Below are positions 1,044-7,072 of a stretch of 32,269 nucleotides of DNA, piece by piece. Position 1 is the first letter of the stretch; the number at the start of each line of letters is the position of its first letter. The notes under the pieces were generated by a model that was not told where the DNA came from, ran no database searches, and saw nothing but the letters and a program-made list of their open reading frames with translations. The position numbers and the translations under genes were made by a program. The DNA comes from Candidatus Woodwardiibium gallinarum. Lineage in GTDB: Bacteria > Bacillota > Clostridia > Oscillospirales > CAG-382. The stretch covers positions 1 through 32,269 of the forward strand of contig CAJFRY010000023.1 of NCBI GenBank assembly GCA_904419545.1, given 5' to 3'.

Positions 1044-1982
1044 TTACCGCTTCCAGCCGGCCCGCAGAAGCTCCAGCCAGGTTTTGATGCTGTCGGGCAG
1101 CAGCCGCGACGCGTCCTCCGACAGGGCAAACGCATACAGCTCCGCCGGTGCGGCAATGTGCATCTGCGGATATCGGCCTGCGTCTGCCACCGTTCCTTTT
1201 GTGGTCAAAAACCACACCTCGCCCGGCAGAGCGGCATATGGCGCGGCGTCGATGACATCGCCGCTGTTTTTGGCCTGCACGAAAATACGGCCGCCGTTTT
1301 CGGGGTTTATCAGTTCGCACTCGTACAGCTTGGTAGACATCTTGCAGGTAGAGGGAATGCAAACGTAACCGTAGGTTTTGTACAGCCACAGGCAGAGCAG
1401 GTCCTCACAGTCGCTGGGAGACAGCAGGGTATAAAAAGTCTCCTCGGCCTGCTCCACGGTCCTGCCGTCGGCGAAATGCGTCCCGGCCAGACGGTCATAC
1501 AGCAGAGCGGTGAAGGTTTCAATCCCGCTTTTTCCGATTCGCTGAACGGTTTTTCCCCTAATAAAAGCCGTATACAGCGCGCCGGGGATATCGCTTTCAA
1601 TCTTGCCGTAGGGATACCATCGAAGATTCGTCAGCTGGTTGCAGGAATCCAGACGGGTTGCTTCTTCATCCGGGCAGAATCTCCATTCCGACTGCTCGTC
1701 TACGCGTGCCAGATAAAAGGTCCGGCCGCTGCGCATCCAGATATAGTCGCCCGGCTTTATCCTGTCGTGCAGGGCCGTCACGCAGCTCAAGCATGTTTTC
1801 AACGAATCTCCTTTATAGATTTCCTTGGCTCGAGCAAGATAAACGGAAAAATCCCGGCATTCTTCCCGTTCCTCCCGCGATAGCTCTCCAAGGCTCCATC
1901 CTATCGCCGCAATCTGGTTTTTCAGGCAATAGTCGATGTTATTCCCCGAAGAAGGTTTTGTCTGCAAGCGCCATACCTGCAT
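1044..1982 (-). CDS. putative modification-dependent restriction nuclease: EVE/PUA-like domain + PD-(D/E)XK-like domain
   Basis: A 312-aa protein with ATG 1982 preceded by AAAGGATG. Residues 1-125 (VWRLQ at the start, IAAIGW at 24-29, KPGDYIWMR at 76-84, YLARV at 90-94) have the look of EVE/PUA-like base-reading domains found at the N-terminus of methyl-directed nucleases. Residues 180-275 resemble an Mrr-type endonuclease fold: a helix, then E223 in YECELI, then VQAKN at 235-239, which gives the (E/Q)xK half of a PD-(D/E)XK site in the QxK form used by Mrr. I infer a type IV-like restriction enzyme acting on modified DNA. No methyltransferase is adjacent, which fits. It lies directly downstream of an invertible-promoter-like segment. 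The assignment rests on motif resemblance; another EVE-nuclease family is possible. Confidence 0.55.
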   Translation of the reverse strand: MQVWRLQTKPSSGNNIDYCLKNQIAAIGWSLGELSREEREECRDFSVYLARAKEIYKGDSLKTCLSCVTALHDRIKPGDYIWMRSGRTFYLARVDEQSEWRFCPDEEATRLDSCNQLTNLRWYPYGKIESDIPGALYTAFIRGKTVQRIGKSGIETFTALLYDRLAGTHFADGRTVEQAEETFYTLLSPSDCEDLLCLWLYKTYGYVCIPSTCKMSTKLYECELINPENGGRIFVQAKNSGDVIDAAPYAALPGEVWFLTTKGTVADAGRYPQMHIAAPAELYAFALSEDASRLLPDSIKTWLELLRAGWKR

Positions 1983-2016
1983 AGTACTTCATCCTTTCTG
2001 TTTTCATTTTTCCGCG

Positions 2017-2046
2017 TTTGCAACAGAATCCGTATTCTGTTGCAAA
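2017..2046. repeat. left inverted repeat of putative inverton (13-bp-arm palindrome)
   Basis: A perfect palindrome with 13-bp arms TTTGCAACAGAAT / ATTCTGTTGCAAA around centre CCGT. Positions 2019-2046 are the exact reverse complement of 2312-2339. The asymmetric centre (CCGT here, ACGG there) shows the two sites lie in inverted orientation, as needed for inversion by a tyrosine recombinase. Confidence 0.85.
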
Positions 2047-2311
2047 GCGGTATGGGCACGAACGCTTCTTTTGCTCGATTTTAACATATAAGACAAGAAA
2101 TGTCAACCACTTTGCACATGAAAAGCGGGCATTTGGGCGGAAATGCGCGAAAAAGAGCACGACAAATAAGCCTCTTCCCGTGATTTTTTGAAAAAAATCG
2201 GAACAGGCTTGGTCTTTTGCGCCCTTTTTCGGGTTGTATCCCGCTTTCCGGCGGCTTCCGAGGCTGCGGAAGCGCCCCGCCGCTCCCGCAGCCGTTTCCT
2301 TCCGCCCTCTG
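2047..2311. mobile_element. putative 265-bp invertible promoter segment (inverton)
   Basis: The segment lies between two 28-bp inverted repeats, contains a near-consensus promoter aimed at the nuclease gene, has no convincing ORF, and is flanked on its other side by a tyrosine recombinase gene. This matches phase-variable promoter switches described in gut Firmicutes and Bacteroides. In the orientation shown the nuclease gene is ON; inverted, the promoter would read antisense into the 3' end of the recombinase gene. Inversion itself is inferred, not seen. Confidence 0.65.
2078..2106 (-). promoter_or_regulatory. sigma-A promoter inside the putative invertible segment, facing the nuclease gene
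   Basis: On the minus strand TTGACA (2106-2101), 17 nt, TAAAAT (2083-2078). The predicted start is near 2070, giving a leader of about 88 nt to ATG 1982 that includes palindrome 2017-2046. No comparable promoter faces the + strand within the segment. Confidence 0.8.
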
Positions 2312-2341
2312 TTTGCAACAGAATACGGATTCTGTTGCAGC
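2312..2341. repeat. right inverted repeat of putative inverton
   Basis: Second copy of the palindromic site, with arms TGCAACAGAAT / ATTCTGTTGCA around centre ACGG. The left 28 bp (2312-2339) match the left site exactly as reverse complement; identity ends sharply outside. It sits 33 bp beyond the recombinase stop codon. Without a T-run it does not look like a simple terminator. Confidence 0.85.
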
Positions 2342-2373
2342 CGCCGCCGAAAGCGGCTTTTTCTTTTCTCCCG

Positions 2374-3216
2374 CTAAAGGATCAGGTGCAGGTTCTCCAT
2401 CCGGCGGCGGTGTTCCCGGCCGGTGGAGAGGACGTAGACGCGGGTCGTCTCGATACTGCTGTGGCCGAGGATGTCGGCCAGCGCGGCGATGTCCTTCTCC
2501 TGCCGGTAGAACGTCAGCGCAAACAGGTGCCGCAGGTTATGCGGGAACACCTTCTGCGGCTCGACGCCCGCTTCCCCGCAGAGCGCCTTCATCTCCCGCC
2601 AGATGTTTGTTCGGTGCAGGGGACGTCCCGTCCGTGTGCGGAACACCGGTCCTTCGACAGCGCCGATGTCGGCGGCGTACCGCAGGAGCTTTTCCCGCAG
2701 CGCGCGGACCAGCAGCACCCGCCGCACCTTTCCCTTGCAGGAGACGGCCACCTCGCCGGCCCGGACGGCTTCGACCGTGACGAATGTCAGTTCACCGACG
2801 CGGATTCCGGTGCCGCATATCGTCTGCAGAAGCAGGCACAGCCGCCGGTTTCGTCTCCGCTCGGCGGCACGGCAGAGGCGTGCGTATTCCGCCTGCCCCA
2901 GCTCACGTTTTTCCGTGCGGAAAACGTCGCGCTGGGTGCGCACCGTTTTGAGCCTGCATTCGTGTCAGCCCAAAAAGCCGAACAGGCCGTTCAGCGCCGC
3001 CAGTCTGGCGTTGACGGTGCGCACCGCATAGCCGCCGGCGAGCAGCCGCCGCTTATATACGGCGGCCGACGCCTTCGTGACCGCGCCGGCGCTGTCTGCG
3101 AAGAACGCGAGCGCGGTGCGCATATATGCTTCCTGTGTGGCGGTGCTCTTTTCCTCCGCCTGCAGATGGCTTCGGTAGTCCTCCAGCTGCCGGCGCGTCA
3201 GGGAATGCACTTCCAT
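2374..3216 (-). pseudogene. tyrosine recombinase/integrase interrupted by in-frame TGA
   Basis: One reading frame of 280 codons, broken only by TGA at 2967-2965 (codon 84). The N-terminal part (1-83) is a core-binding SAM-like domain. The C-terminal part keeps every catalytic residue: Arg139 (GTGIRVGEL), Lys at 161/163 (CKGK), His226-x-x-Arg229 (HNLRH), His252 (GHSS) and Tyr261 (TTRVYV). ATG 3216 is chosen over an upstream in-frame codon because GGAGGT lies 7 nt before it. TGA sits at the link between the two domains and differs from TGG (Trp) by one base. Nothing else is broken, so the lesion is recent, is read through, or is a sequencing error. A GTG at 2943 could restart the catalytic domain alone. 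It is probably the dedicated invertase for the adjacent segment. Confidence 0.8.
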
Positions 3217-3260
3217 TGCTTTCACCTCCGTTCGCACTTTGATGCCTTTCCGGCGCGGAA

Positions 3261-3593: not shown

Positions 3594-5036
3594 TCATTTG
3601 TCATCCGCTGTACCTGCAGACGATTCCCGGATTTCCGCCGCAGGCGGTTCGGCGGGCGTGCAAGCCGCAGAGGGTGTTTCACGGGATGCGGCCGGGACGG
3701 CGCCGGCAGCGGAGGCGAACGTTTCGTGCGGTGCATTTGCGCCGCTTTTTTTCTGTTTGTCCGGCGAAGCGCTTTCCTGCGCCGCATACGCCTGCAGGAG
3801 AGAGGGCGCGTTTTTCGCCAGCTTTTTGATGCTCAAATCTTCCGCTTTATCATTGGCGAGGCGCAGTTGGTTTTCCGACGAGAGCAATTCTTCCTTGACC
3901 TTGTTCAAACGGGCGATGGCTTTATCGATTTCGTCAATCGCCGCGTTGAATTTTTGGCTGGCCAGCTTAAAATTCCGCGAAAATTTCTCTTTGAAGTCAT
4001 TCAAATTGCTTTGAAAATTTTCAATATCCACCTGCTGATGCCTCGCTTCCTGAAGCTCCTGACGGACGTCTAAGGTATTGCGTGCGGCATTGCGGAGCAG
4101 GGAGAGGATCGGAATAAAAAACTGCGGCCGTATGACATACATTTTTTCGTATCTGTGCGAAACGTCTACGATTCCGTTGTTATACAGCTCGCTGTCCGGC
4201 TCCAGCATGGAAACGAGGACGGCGTATTCGCATTGCTTTTCACGACGGTCCTTGTCCAGCTTTTGGAAAAAGTCTTCATTCTTATGTTTTGTAGCCGTCG
4301 TATCCGCCTCGTTTTTCATTTCGAACATAATGGAAATGAATTCGATACCGGATGGAGAGGATTCGCGGAAGATGAAATCGCCCTTGCTTCCGCTGCGTGC
4401 GTCGTTGTCCTTTTCGAAGTAAGCGTTCGGGAAAGCGACCGCCCGAAAGGTATTGAATTGATCCAGACAATGCTGCTCCAGGCTTTCGCCGATCATTTTG
4501 GTGGACAGACGGGCTTTGAAGTCCCGGTATTGCCCGATGGTTTCGTCCTTTGCCTTCAGCGTAATCTCAAATTGCTTTTGCTTTTCGGACATTGCCGTTT
4601 TCAGCTCGGTAATCTCGCTTTCTTTTTCGCGGACGGCTTCCGAAACGGCGAGCTTTTTATCCGTTTCGCTGTTGGAAAGCTGTGCTTCCAACTCCTTGAT
4701 CGTGAGCATTTTCTCCTGAAGAGCCGTGTTTTTCTCGTCAAGCGCTTTTTGGAGCTGTTCGTCTTTTTTCCGTTCCGTTTCGCTTACGGCGAGCTGCTTA
4801 TCTGTTTCGCTGTTGGAGAGCTGCAACTCTAAATCCTTGATTCTGTCGTCCTTTTCAAAGCGCAACTGCCGGTATTTCTGTTCCCATTCGAGGTCTTTCT
4901 GTTTGCTGATGGACTTTTCCCGATTGCTCAGCTCCGTATTGAATTCAATTGTTCGGACTTGCTGGACGATCTGCTCGTATTTGGATGCATCGATATGGAA
5001 CAGTTCACCGCAGTTCGGACATTTTATTTCCTGCAT
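3594..5036 (-). CDS. DUF2130 family protein (zinc-ribbon, coiled coil, nuclease-like)
   Basis: 480 aa. ATG 5036 is preferred over an in-frame TTG at 5042 because GGAGGG lies 8 nt upstream of the ATG. The N-terminus has a single CPNC knuckle (C6, C9). A long coiled coil (about 20-170) contains an internal repeat, QLSNSETDKQLAVSE / QLSNSETDKKLAVSE. The DUF2130 core (about 175-330) follows, with FEMKNEADTT resembling the ExK part of a PD-(D/E)XK fold, then a second coiled coil (about 330-420) and a Pro/Ala/Ser-rich tail. Family members have no firm function; a DNA-related role is inferred from RmuC-like architecture. It is the last gene of the minus-strand cluster starting at 8527 and is followed by two terminators. 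Confidence 0.8.
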   Translation of the reverse strand: MQEIKCPNCGELFHIDASKYEQIVQQVRTIEFNTELSNREKSISKQKDLEWEQKYRQLRFEKDDRIKDLELQLSNSETDKQLAVSETERKKDEQLQKALDEKNTALQEKMLTIKELEAQLSNSETDKKLAVSEAVREKESEITELKTAMSEKQKQFEITLKAKDETIGQYRDFKARLSTKMIGESLEQHCLDQFNTFRAVAFPNAYFEKDNDARSGSKGDFIFRESSPSGIEFISIMFEMKNEADTTATKHKNEDFFQKLDKDRREKQCEYAVLVSMLEPDSELYNNGIVDVSHRYEKMYVIRPQFFIPILSLLRNAARNTLDVRQELQEARHQQVDIENFQSNLNDFKEKFSRNFKLASQKFNAAIDEIDKAIARLNKVKEELLSSENQLRLANDKAEDLSIKKLAKNAPSLLQAYAAQESASPDKQKKSGANAPHETFASAAGAVPAASRETPSAACTPAEPPAAEIRESSAGTADDK

Positions 5037-5111
5037 ATTCAAATCCCTCCGAATTGGATTCGTATTTAAGCAAAACGGCGTCGCTGCCGTACGGACGCGG
5101 GAACGGTGTTT

Positions 5112-6217: not shown

Positions 6218-7072
6218 CTATGCTTCCGGCGCATATTTGCGACGCATATCCGTGACGTACCGCCGGATGTTCGCTTCATACCGCGGATACGCGCAGCCGA
6301 GGGCTTTGCTGCAGCGGAGCGCGGCGTCGGCAAACAGTGCCATGCAGCCGTCCAGCGCCTTCCAAAGCGCTTGGGGCGAGCCCTGCTCGTAGGTCGTGAG
6401 CAGGGCTTTCCACTCGTGCGGGTGAAGGTAATGGTCAATGAATTTATAATTTTTCCCAAGAGAAAACGTAAATCCGTGCGTAAAGCCAACCGTCCAGCCC
6501 AGCATCCGCAGCAGCTCACGCCGCAGCAGGTGCAGATGATCGGCTGCATACAGGAATTCACGGCGGCACAATCCTTTTGTAACGTAAACGGCGAGAGACC
6601 AGAACTCGTTGCAGCAATCATCAAACGCACGCGCGGACGGCTTCCGAATCCAATAATCGGCGTCGGTAGGCGGCGGGAGCGACCCAACCAGACCGCATTT
6701 GTCCAGCAGGATTGTGCGCAGCCGGTCCTGTGCCAGATACGCCGGCAGATCTGCCGGCTCGAGCAGCGTGAGGTCGAGCTTGCCGTAGTCGTCAAACAGC
6801 ATCAGATAGCTGTAGCCCGGTTCTTCAGCCGGATACAGCTCCATGTCTTCCGGTTTTTGTATCAGAAGCGGCTTGCCGAAGCGCGCCAGCCAGCCGTCAT
6901 CTCCCGTAAATGCGCTGATGGAGCGGACAAAATAGGTAATGTCGTAATCCTGAAATTCATCGGGCGGAATCCGGACGTTCACGCGCGAGCCTTCCATTCC
7001 CACGGCGAGGATACGGTCGTCAGCTCGCGCAAAGTCCAGCACCGCCTTGAATCGTTTATCCGGCGCCTGCAT
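6218..7072 (-). CDS. ANT(6)-like aminoglycoside 6-adenylyltransferase
   Basis: 284 aa, full family length (about 280-300). Members transfer AMP from ATP to the 6-OH of streptomycin. Seen: nucleotidyltransferase motif GSRVN at about 27-31, then DEFQDYDITYFV with the catalytic Asp pair, KLDLTLLEP, and the C-terminal half typical of ANT(6) (KFIDHYL, WKALLTTYE). ATG 7072 is only 3 nt after the stop codon of the surface protein gene and has no good Shine-Dalgarno, so translation is probably coupled. Base composition matches the neighbours, which suggests a resident chromosomal gene rather than a recent resistance import. Whether it modifies a drug cannot be told from sequence; many chromosomal relatives have unknown substrates. 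Confidence 0.85.
   Translation of the reverse strand: MQAPDKRFKAVLDFARADDRILAVGMEGSRVNVRIPPDEFQDYDITYFVRSISAFTGDDGWLARFGKPLLIQKPEDMELYPAEEPGYSYLMLFDDYGKLDLTLLEPADLPAYLAQDRLRTILLDKCGLVGSLPPPTDADYWIRKPSARAFDDCCNEFWSLAVYVTKGLCRREFLYAADHLHLLRRELLRMLGWTVGFTHGFTFSLGKNYKFIDHYLHPHEWKALLTTYEQGSPQALWKALDGCMALFADAALRCSKALGCAYPRYEANIRRYVTDMRRKYAPEA

Follow-up and report, generated by a model that had tools for sequence, protein, structure and literature searches.

A predicted invertible promoter segment beside an interrupted tyrosine recombinase gene and a putative modification-dependent nuclease in Candidatus Woodwardiibium gallinarum

The present analysis concerns contig CAJFRY010000023.1 of Candidatus Woodwardiibium gallinarum (assembly GCA_904419545.1; order Oscillospirales, family CAG-382), a stretch of 32,269 nucleotides hereafter called the window, in which a 265-bp segment bounded by inverted repeats lies between a tyrosine recombinase gene and a gene for a predicted modification-dependent nuclease. 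We consider it quite likely that this segment inverts under the neighbouring recombinase and thereby switches the nuclease, and that the sequenced strain itself is frozen in the ON orientation. The case is carried by the repeats and promoter of the window, by a widespread family of sister modules in which reversed segments are found, and by the predicted nature of the switched protein.

An earlier note on this DNA, drawn from its letters alone, had described two exact 28-bp reverse complements, each palindromic with an asymmetric centre, around 265 bp, and our coordinates reproduced this arrangement. The left repeat, a predicted recombination site, occupies positions 2019..2046 (4-nt centre CCGT), the predicted invertible segment 2047..2311 and the right repeat, likewise a predicted recombination site, 2312..2339 (centre ACGG); each repeat is itself a near-palindrome, and the left palindrome measures 30 nt (2017-2046). 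Allowing up to three mismatches, the repeat motif occurs at only two places in the genome (2.3 Mb in 69 contigs, 98.6% complete), both at this locus, and 300 simple shuffles of the bases in the first 5 kb yielded inverted-repeat arms of at most 15 bp; these shuffles, as well as those used below for module repeat pairs and terminators, kept base composition and not dinucleotides. An exact match to the palindrome was not found in viral contigs, nor was a relative of the nuclease confirmed in them. A palindrome-like site with 3 mismatches in a genome of the same family (L006) was rejected, as it had no matching partner nearby.

Recombinase, segment and nuclease follow one another in this order in the direction of transcription, with both genes on the same strand. 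The promoter that the earlier note had placed inside the segment, TTGACA-17-TAAAAT aimed at the nuclease gene, was recovered on the minus strand at 2106-2078 with 11 of 12 consensus matches and a TG before the -10 element, a match expected 0.1 times in shuffles of the 501-bp region. This promoter-like site (2078..2106) is directed at the nuclease gene at 1982-1044, whose ATG lies at 1982, and a transcription start expected near 2071 would give a leader computed at 89 nt, within which a likely ribosome-binding site, AGAAAGGA, is situated upstream of the ATG (1992..1999, minus strand). Overlooked until now was a terminator-like plus-strand hairpin with a T-run at 2339-2368, between the recombinase gene and the proximal repeat and facing the segment. 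By itself the stability of this hairpin is not unusual (z -1.1).

By sequence comparison, the window element belongs to a common recombinase-linked module. Searches of the order with an intact relative of the window recombinase (P0061, 70% identical to its 189-aa piece) found the family in 65 of 197 genomes at E 1e-60 and in 95 of 394 at E 1e-80. From the matches listed, 100 places were retrieved (the best-scoring 60 at 1e-60 and 40 from the 1e-80 list) with up to 4.5 kb downstream, and 85 loci, the window included, had enough downstream sequence for a repeat test. Inverted repeats with arms of 14 bp or more were paired just 3' of the recombinase in 72 of these 85 loci (window included) and in none of the remaining 13, compared with 2 of 1700 shuffled sequences (20 base shuffles per downstream region). 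The pairs start 2-96 bp (in one case 262 bp) past the recombinase gene, leave 185-332 bp between their arms and commonly take the form ACATAAT-4 nt-ATTATGT, and in 63 of 71 sister modules the first open reading frame (ORF) past the distal repeat has the strand expected of a target. The window shares the paired repeats, the internal promoter (at sequence level), the same-family recombinase upstream and the same-strand target; it lacks an intact recombinase, which is needed for activity and is not part of the family definition. Where 18-110 bp separate the recombinase from the proximal repeat (42 modules, window included), a terminator-like site faces the segment in 18 and points the opposite way in one, against 2.7% and 0%, respectively, in base shuffles. 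We infer that this terminator shields the recombinase gene from antisense transcription. As observations apart, five modules (L117, L127, L131, L132 and L134) have sites built around CAGAAT/CAAAAT and target genes that resemble one another in size (376-390 aa), and contig ends in L089, L091 and L093 carry two same-direction site copies 39-94 bp apart, which could perhaps permit deletion besides inversion.

The alignments between sister modules make a strong comparative case that the family inverts. Scored against the promoter consensus, the 72 segments point away from the recombinase in 17 cases (including the window), toward it in 41 and in an unclear direction in 14. At E 1e-8, 20 segment pairs can be aligned, five of which, involving eight loci, match on opposite strands; where promoters are clear, same-strand pairs agree in direction (5/5) and opposite-strand pairs disagree (5/5). 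Full-locus alignments of the reversed pairs are collinear on the recombinase side and then continue in reverse through the segment, breaking at the repeats: L100 and L153, the latter from the window's own family, match at 85% over 1460 bp and then at 81% over 266 bp reversed, and L100 and L154, of the same genus, at 82% over 968 bp and then at 87% over 215 bp reversed. The reversed pairs L123/L128 and L123/L129 are paralogues in one genome, and L090/L146 is a further reversed pair. Besides, the contig breaks off no more than 400 bp from the 3' end of the recombinase in 16 of 100 places and from its 5' end in 5 of 100; a site-like palindrome was present in 11 of the first 13 such 3' ends, and 5 break in the site or at most 3 nt away, a pattern that fits mixed orientations in the sequenced populations. 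The earlier note had proposed to look for inverted alleles in relatives; both orientations are seen among sister modules (5 of 20 alignable pairs reversed). The nuclease gene itself is absent from all 62 other genomes of the window's family, the genus consisting of this genome alone in the collection.

Several observations weigh against active switching at the window locus. The evidence from reversed segments and contig ends applies to the module family and not to this locus. The recombinase frame (3237-2374, minus strand) holds one in-frame stop, a TGA at 2967-2965, which the earlier note had missed while correctly recognizing a tyrosine recombinase beside the segment. The downstream open piece (2374..2943, 189 aa) contains the catalytic domain (Pfam Phage_integrase, 7.9e-22), and the upstream open piece (2965..3237) has weak N-terminal SAM-like matches, the best at 1.3e-05 and under the curated cut-off of Pfam; near-identical recombinase proteins begin at an ATG at 3216. 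The 98.6% complete genome yielded no close paralogue that is intact: contig C68 holds two remnants, 51% and 47% identical, and the other two matches stand at about 30% identity. With its recombinase gene interrupted, this strain offers negative sequence evidence for switching and is probably frozen ON, and the inversion claimed by the earlier note is supported for the module family and not for this copy. Set apart from this, contig C68 (L043, 3.5 kb) shows by reading a recombinase remnant split by a seeming IS21-type element, an ORF for a small cysteine-rich peptide and inverted ends of about 97 bp.

The interruption may not be confined to a single record. Among the listed matches of the order search at E 1e-60, an internal stop occurs only at the window and on contig C60 of genome G146. 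The protein P0057 (189 aa) is one residue off the window recombinase and speaks for an identical truncation in a different assembly, and P0180, a 52-aa piece with the same terminal residue as the window's upstream piece, may be the record of this very genome. Other broken forms read as an internal deletion (P0177) or as frameshifts (P0178 and P0179), and some of them may be assembly errors. Intact recombinases that have the greater part of their length in common with the window gene are found in other assemblies (P0058 and P0059, the latter representing 84 sequences clustered at 90% identity); each is near-identical to the window gene over part of its length only, and both may be mosaics or assembly chimeras. 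Altogether, these varied broken and intact records suggest, barring assembly error, repeated loss of the recombinase in the population.

The switched gene (1044..1982, minus strand) encodes a 312-aa protein that matches the PADLOC candidate phage defence family PDC-S02 at 1.3e-81, with residues 1-307 aligned to positions 1-295 of the 299 in the profile. Its predicted fold (predicted local distance difference test, pLDDT, 90.7) resembles an EVE/YTH modified-base reader (residues 1-171) joined to an MspJI-like PD-(D/E)XK nuclease (175-301), and the nuclease-like half carries invariant E-Q-K residues. The readers of the modification-dependent restriction enzymes MspJI and AspBHI are SRA-like, whereas the reader half of the window protein aligns with EVE/YTH structures instead. 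The protein has no Pfam match, and a PDB sequence search returned nothing that could be credited as a relative of the nuclease (the best match, at E 0.045, was put down to chance). A Pfam scan of six further ORFs, corresponding to five neighbouring genes between 2374 and 8611, found no methyltransferase; positions 1-1043 and genes farther away lie outside that scan. Fold resemblance and family match support a one-gene Type IV restriction enzyme with a predicted role in defence, and the EVE/PD-(D/E)XK-type restriction enzyme named in the earlier note is supported as a prediction. Apart from these results, the protein P0056, from an 8461-bp contig, is identical to the nuclease over its first 27 residues and continues as a dockerin protein whose C-terminal part is found at the start of contig C10 of this genome; it is either a rearrangement or an assembly chimera.

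PDC-S02 genes are rare: counting this genome both times, they occur in 4 of 394 genomes in the order and in 2 of 391 in the class, and the genome collection contains 21 loci. The window's recombinase family was absent from all 25 other PDC-S02 loci (3.9-11 kb examined at each; a weak match at 0.0015 in L016), and repeat arms of at least 13 bp around the gene were seen in none of 22, after L015, L023 and L026 had been excluded for carrying only a partial gene. A conserved pairing of switch and PDC-S02 was not found at these other loci, and homologous loci that keep the palindromes and lack the recombinase, the finding that the earlier note had named as contrary to its proposal, did not appear. 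Because none of the 25 other loci carries the recombinase, the pairing looks lineage-specific, and the switch was probably joined to the PDC-S02 gene in this lineage.

Sister modules stand before a variety of other genes, with target-side Pfam matches that include DUF4379, SPFH, S-layer, cohesin, lectin and polysaccharide genes; DUF4379 treble-clef repeats occur in six target-side proteins of set A2 (confirmed singly in L117 and L131). PADLOC scans, which took in one or more target-side proteins from 63 of the 71 other modules and one locus without repeats, gave few matches, mostly weak or generic. They include two helicase-like proteins, that of L178 and that of L097, to which Pfam assigns HA repeats, as well as a partial PDC-S02 match in L075 (4.6e-07) and a mad3 match (4.9e-27) whose member is absent from the 17 members of set A3 rescanned singly; further matches, not assigned to particular loci, are to a second mad8 member, AriA, NsnB, AbiLi, HEC-02A, ATPase-Toprim and PDC-M01B. 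Of the defence-like targets outside the window, the clearest is the HerA-like ATPase of L145 (mad8 3.6e-18, HerA 2.3e-12), for which a PDB sequence search gave no relative at E 0.01 and whose module adjoins a TIR-TM gene (8.2e-83). A sister module of this layout in the same family, ahead of a HerA-like ATPase gene and adjoining a TIR-TM gene at 8261-12700 of L180 (contig C40 of genome G036), is a second candidate for a switchable defence.

According to the mechanism that we propose, transcription in the orientation seen (ON) would start near 2071 and enter the nuclease gene through the 89-nt leader. After inversion (OFF), the promoter would fire toward the recombinase gene and meet the one-way terminator at 2339-2368 about 50 nt past its start, so that the nuclease would go untranscribed and no transcript antisense to the recombinase would arise. 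The nuclease would bind a modified base by its EVE/YTH-like domain and cut DNA by its PD-(D/E)XK domain, like Type IV enzymes, and switching would let part of the population carry the nuclease as a guard while the rest escape its cost. A broader proposal, which we advance only tentatively and regard as doubtful as a whole, is that a portable promoter-flipping module with a one-way terminator of its own has captured a single-gene Type IV enzyme and turned a nuclease independent of any methylase into a stochastic, population-level phage defence, and that repeated loss of the recombinase locks some lineages in the defended state.

The most serious alternative is that the locus is a dead relic, a former switch that has lost its recombinase and left an ordinary constitutive promoter before the nuclease gene. 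The in-frame stop, the want of an intact close paralogue, the same truncation in P0057, the shared end residue of P0180 (maybe this genome's own record) and the broken P0177, P0178 and P0179 all favour it; yet both repeats are still exact, intact recombinases exist in other assemblies (even though P0058 and P0059 look mosaic), and what is true of the strain need not be true of the species, so that we hold it to be rather unlikely. Less probable still, in our judgement, is that the switched gene encodes a housekeeping or RNA-acting EVE protein and not a defence nuclease. Such a role would agree with the YTH folds among the best structural matches, which bind modified RNA according to the entry titles, with the missing Pfam match and with sister modules that drive other genes (surface proteins, SPFH-domain and DUF4379 proteins), but it is opposed by the strong PDC-S02 match, by the nuclease-like half with its invariant E-Q-K and by the rare and accessory distribution of the gene.

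Two further explanations dispense with inversion and appear very improbable. Since each repeat is a near-palindrome of at least 26 nt, which by its sequence could pair with itself as a hairpin of the leader RNA, the palindromes might be operators or transcript hairpins for a regulator and not recombination sites; this reading was rejected, given that the same paired layout lies immediately 3' of the recombinase in 72 of 85 loci and that sister segments are reversed between the repeats. Equally remote is a mobile-element integrase whose element ends are the repeats, in a unit that moves and does not flip. The same kind of module does stand before many unrelated genes, and such recombinases are common, as the counts at E 1e-60 indicate; the repeats, however, enclose only the 265-bp segment and leave the recombinase gene outside, and the reversed sister segments show inversion. 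Inversion of the segment by the recombinase, with this strain likely frozen ON, is the reading that we retain.

Invertible promoters are already known, as is DNA inversion acting on restriction systems. Judging by their titles, reports of 2020 and 1994 are said to describe a phase-variable system in Bacteroides fragilis and a system with DNA inversion in Mycoplasma pulmonis, respectively. The recombinase FimB, which is shorter than the full-length recombinase of the window, offers a further comparison. In the fimS/FimB system of the type 1 fimbriae of E. coli, this tyrosine recombinase inverts 314 bp and so connects or disconnects the operon (PMC9993118), which resembles the window in joining a tyrosine recombinase to a short segment and differs in its target. 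Among the invertons of gut bacteria, group 139 has been tied in a 2025 study to invertase group 35, composed of tyrosine recombinases, with 32 of 33 invertons from Clostridia, and two examples with about 206 and 228 bp between the repeats shifted orientation over culture passages (PMC11892184). Like those invertons, the modules described here combine a short segment between inverted repeats with a nearby tyrosine recombinase, and the two sizes fall within our range of 185-332 bp; unlike them, the window has an interrupted recombinase, and no restriction nuclease is named as a group 139 target in the parts of that report consulted (PMC11892184). Three short site strings had no match in the main text of the same report; by size and class, the window module is probably of the same kind as group 139.

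Restriction functions under reversible DNA change, sometimes by inversion, have been described for phase-variable Type I and III restriction-modification systems (PMC11868660; PMC12707154), Type I specificity genes overlap inverton group 145 (PMC11892184), and invertible promoters on methyltransferases have been suggested in the discussion of another study (PMC10333322). As far as these accounts go, such systems change specificity or methyltransferase expression, whereas in the window a promoter stands before one lone nuclease gene, and none of the neighbouring genes scanned encodes a methyltransferase. The EVE-HNH modification-dependent restriction enzyme VcaM4I, as presented in PMC7897488, cuts with an HNH nuclease in place of the PD-(D/E)XK-like nuclease of the window protein. 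DNA inversion has also been linked to phage defence in E. coli, where the serine recombinase PinQ makes a chimeric protein that blocks adsorption of phage T2 (PMC12529663), unlike the promoter switch considered here. An invertible promoter before a Type IV or EVE-type nuclease was not found in an incomplete search of the literature, which is weak evidence of absence, and a term search of an EVE-domain survey gave no mention of phase variation or inversion (PMC7641849).

Other features of the window are noted for completeness. A DUF2130 protein (4.2e-87) is encoded on the minus strand at 3594-5042, directly upstream of the recombinase, and may belong with it to one neighbourhood. The minus-strand gene at 6218-7072, some 3 kb away from that of the recombinase, matches streptomycin adenylyltransferase (Pfam, 4.5e-95), making it a possible aminoglycoside-resistance gene. 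At the other end, positions 1-403 consist of a 63-bp tandem repeat in 6.4 copies, which seem to encode the leucine-rich repeats of a secreted surface protein on the minus strand.

A modification-dependent nuclease endangers wrongly marked DNA, and reversible silencing would explain how a bacterium could keep such an enzyme while taking up or making modified DNA. The generality of the recombinase module provides a ready means to list switchable genes in related genomes, among them one for a HerA-like ATPase next to a TIR gene. If the proposed switch works, promoter inversion, which acts on surface structures, on antibiotic resistance and on genes of restriction specificity, would come to include a restriction nuclease that has no methylase, and counts of ON and OFF cells around phage attack would offer a direct test bed for bet-hedging in phage defence.
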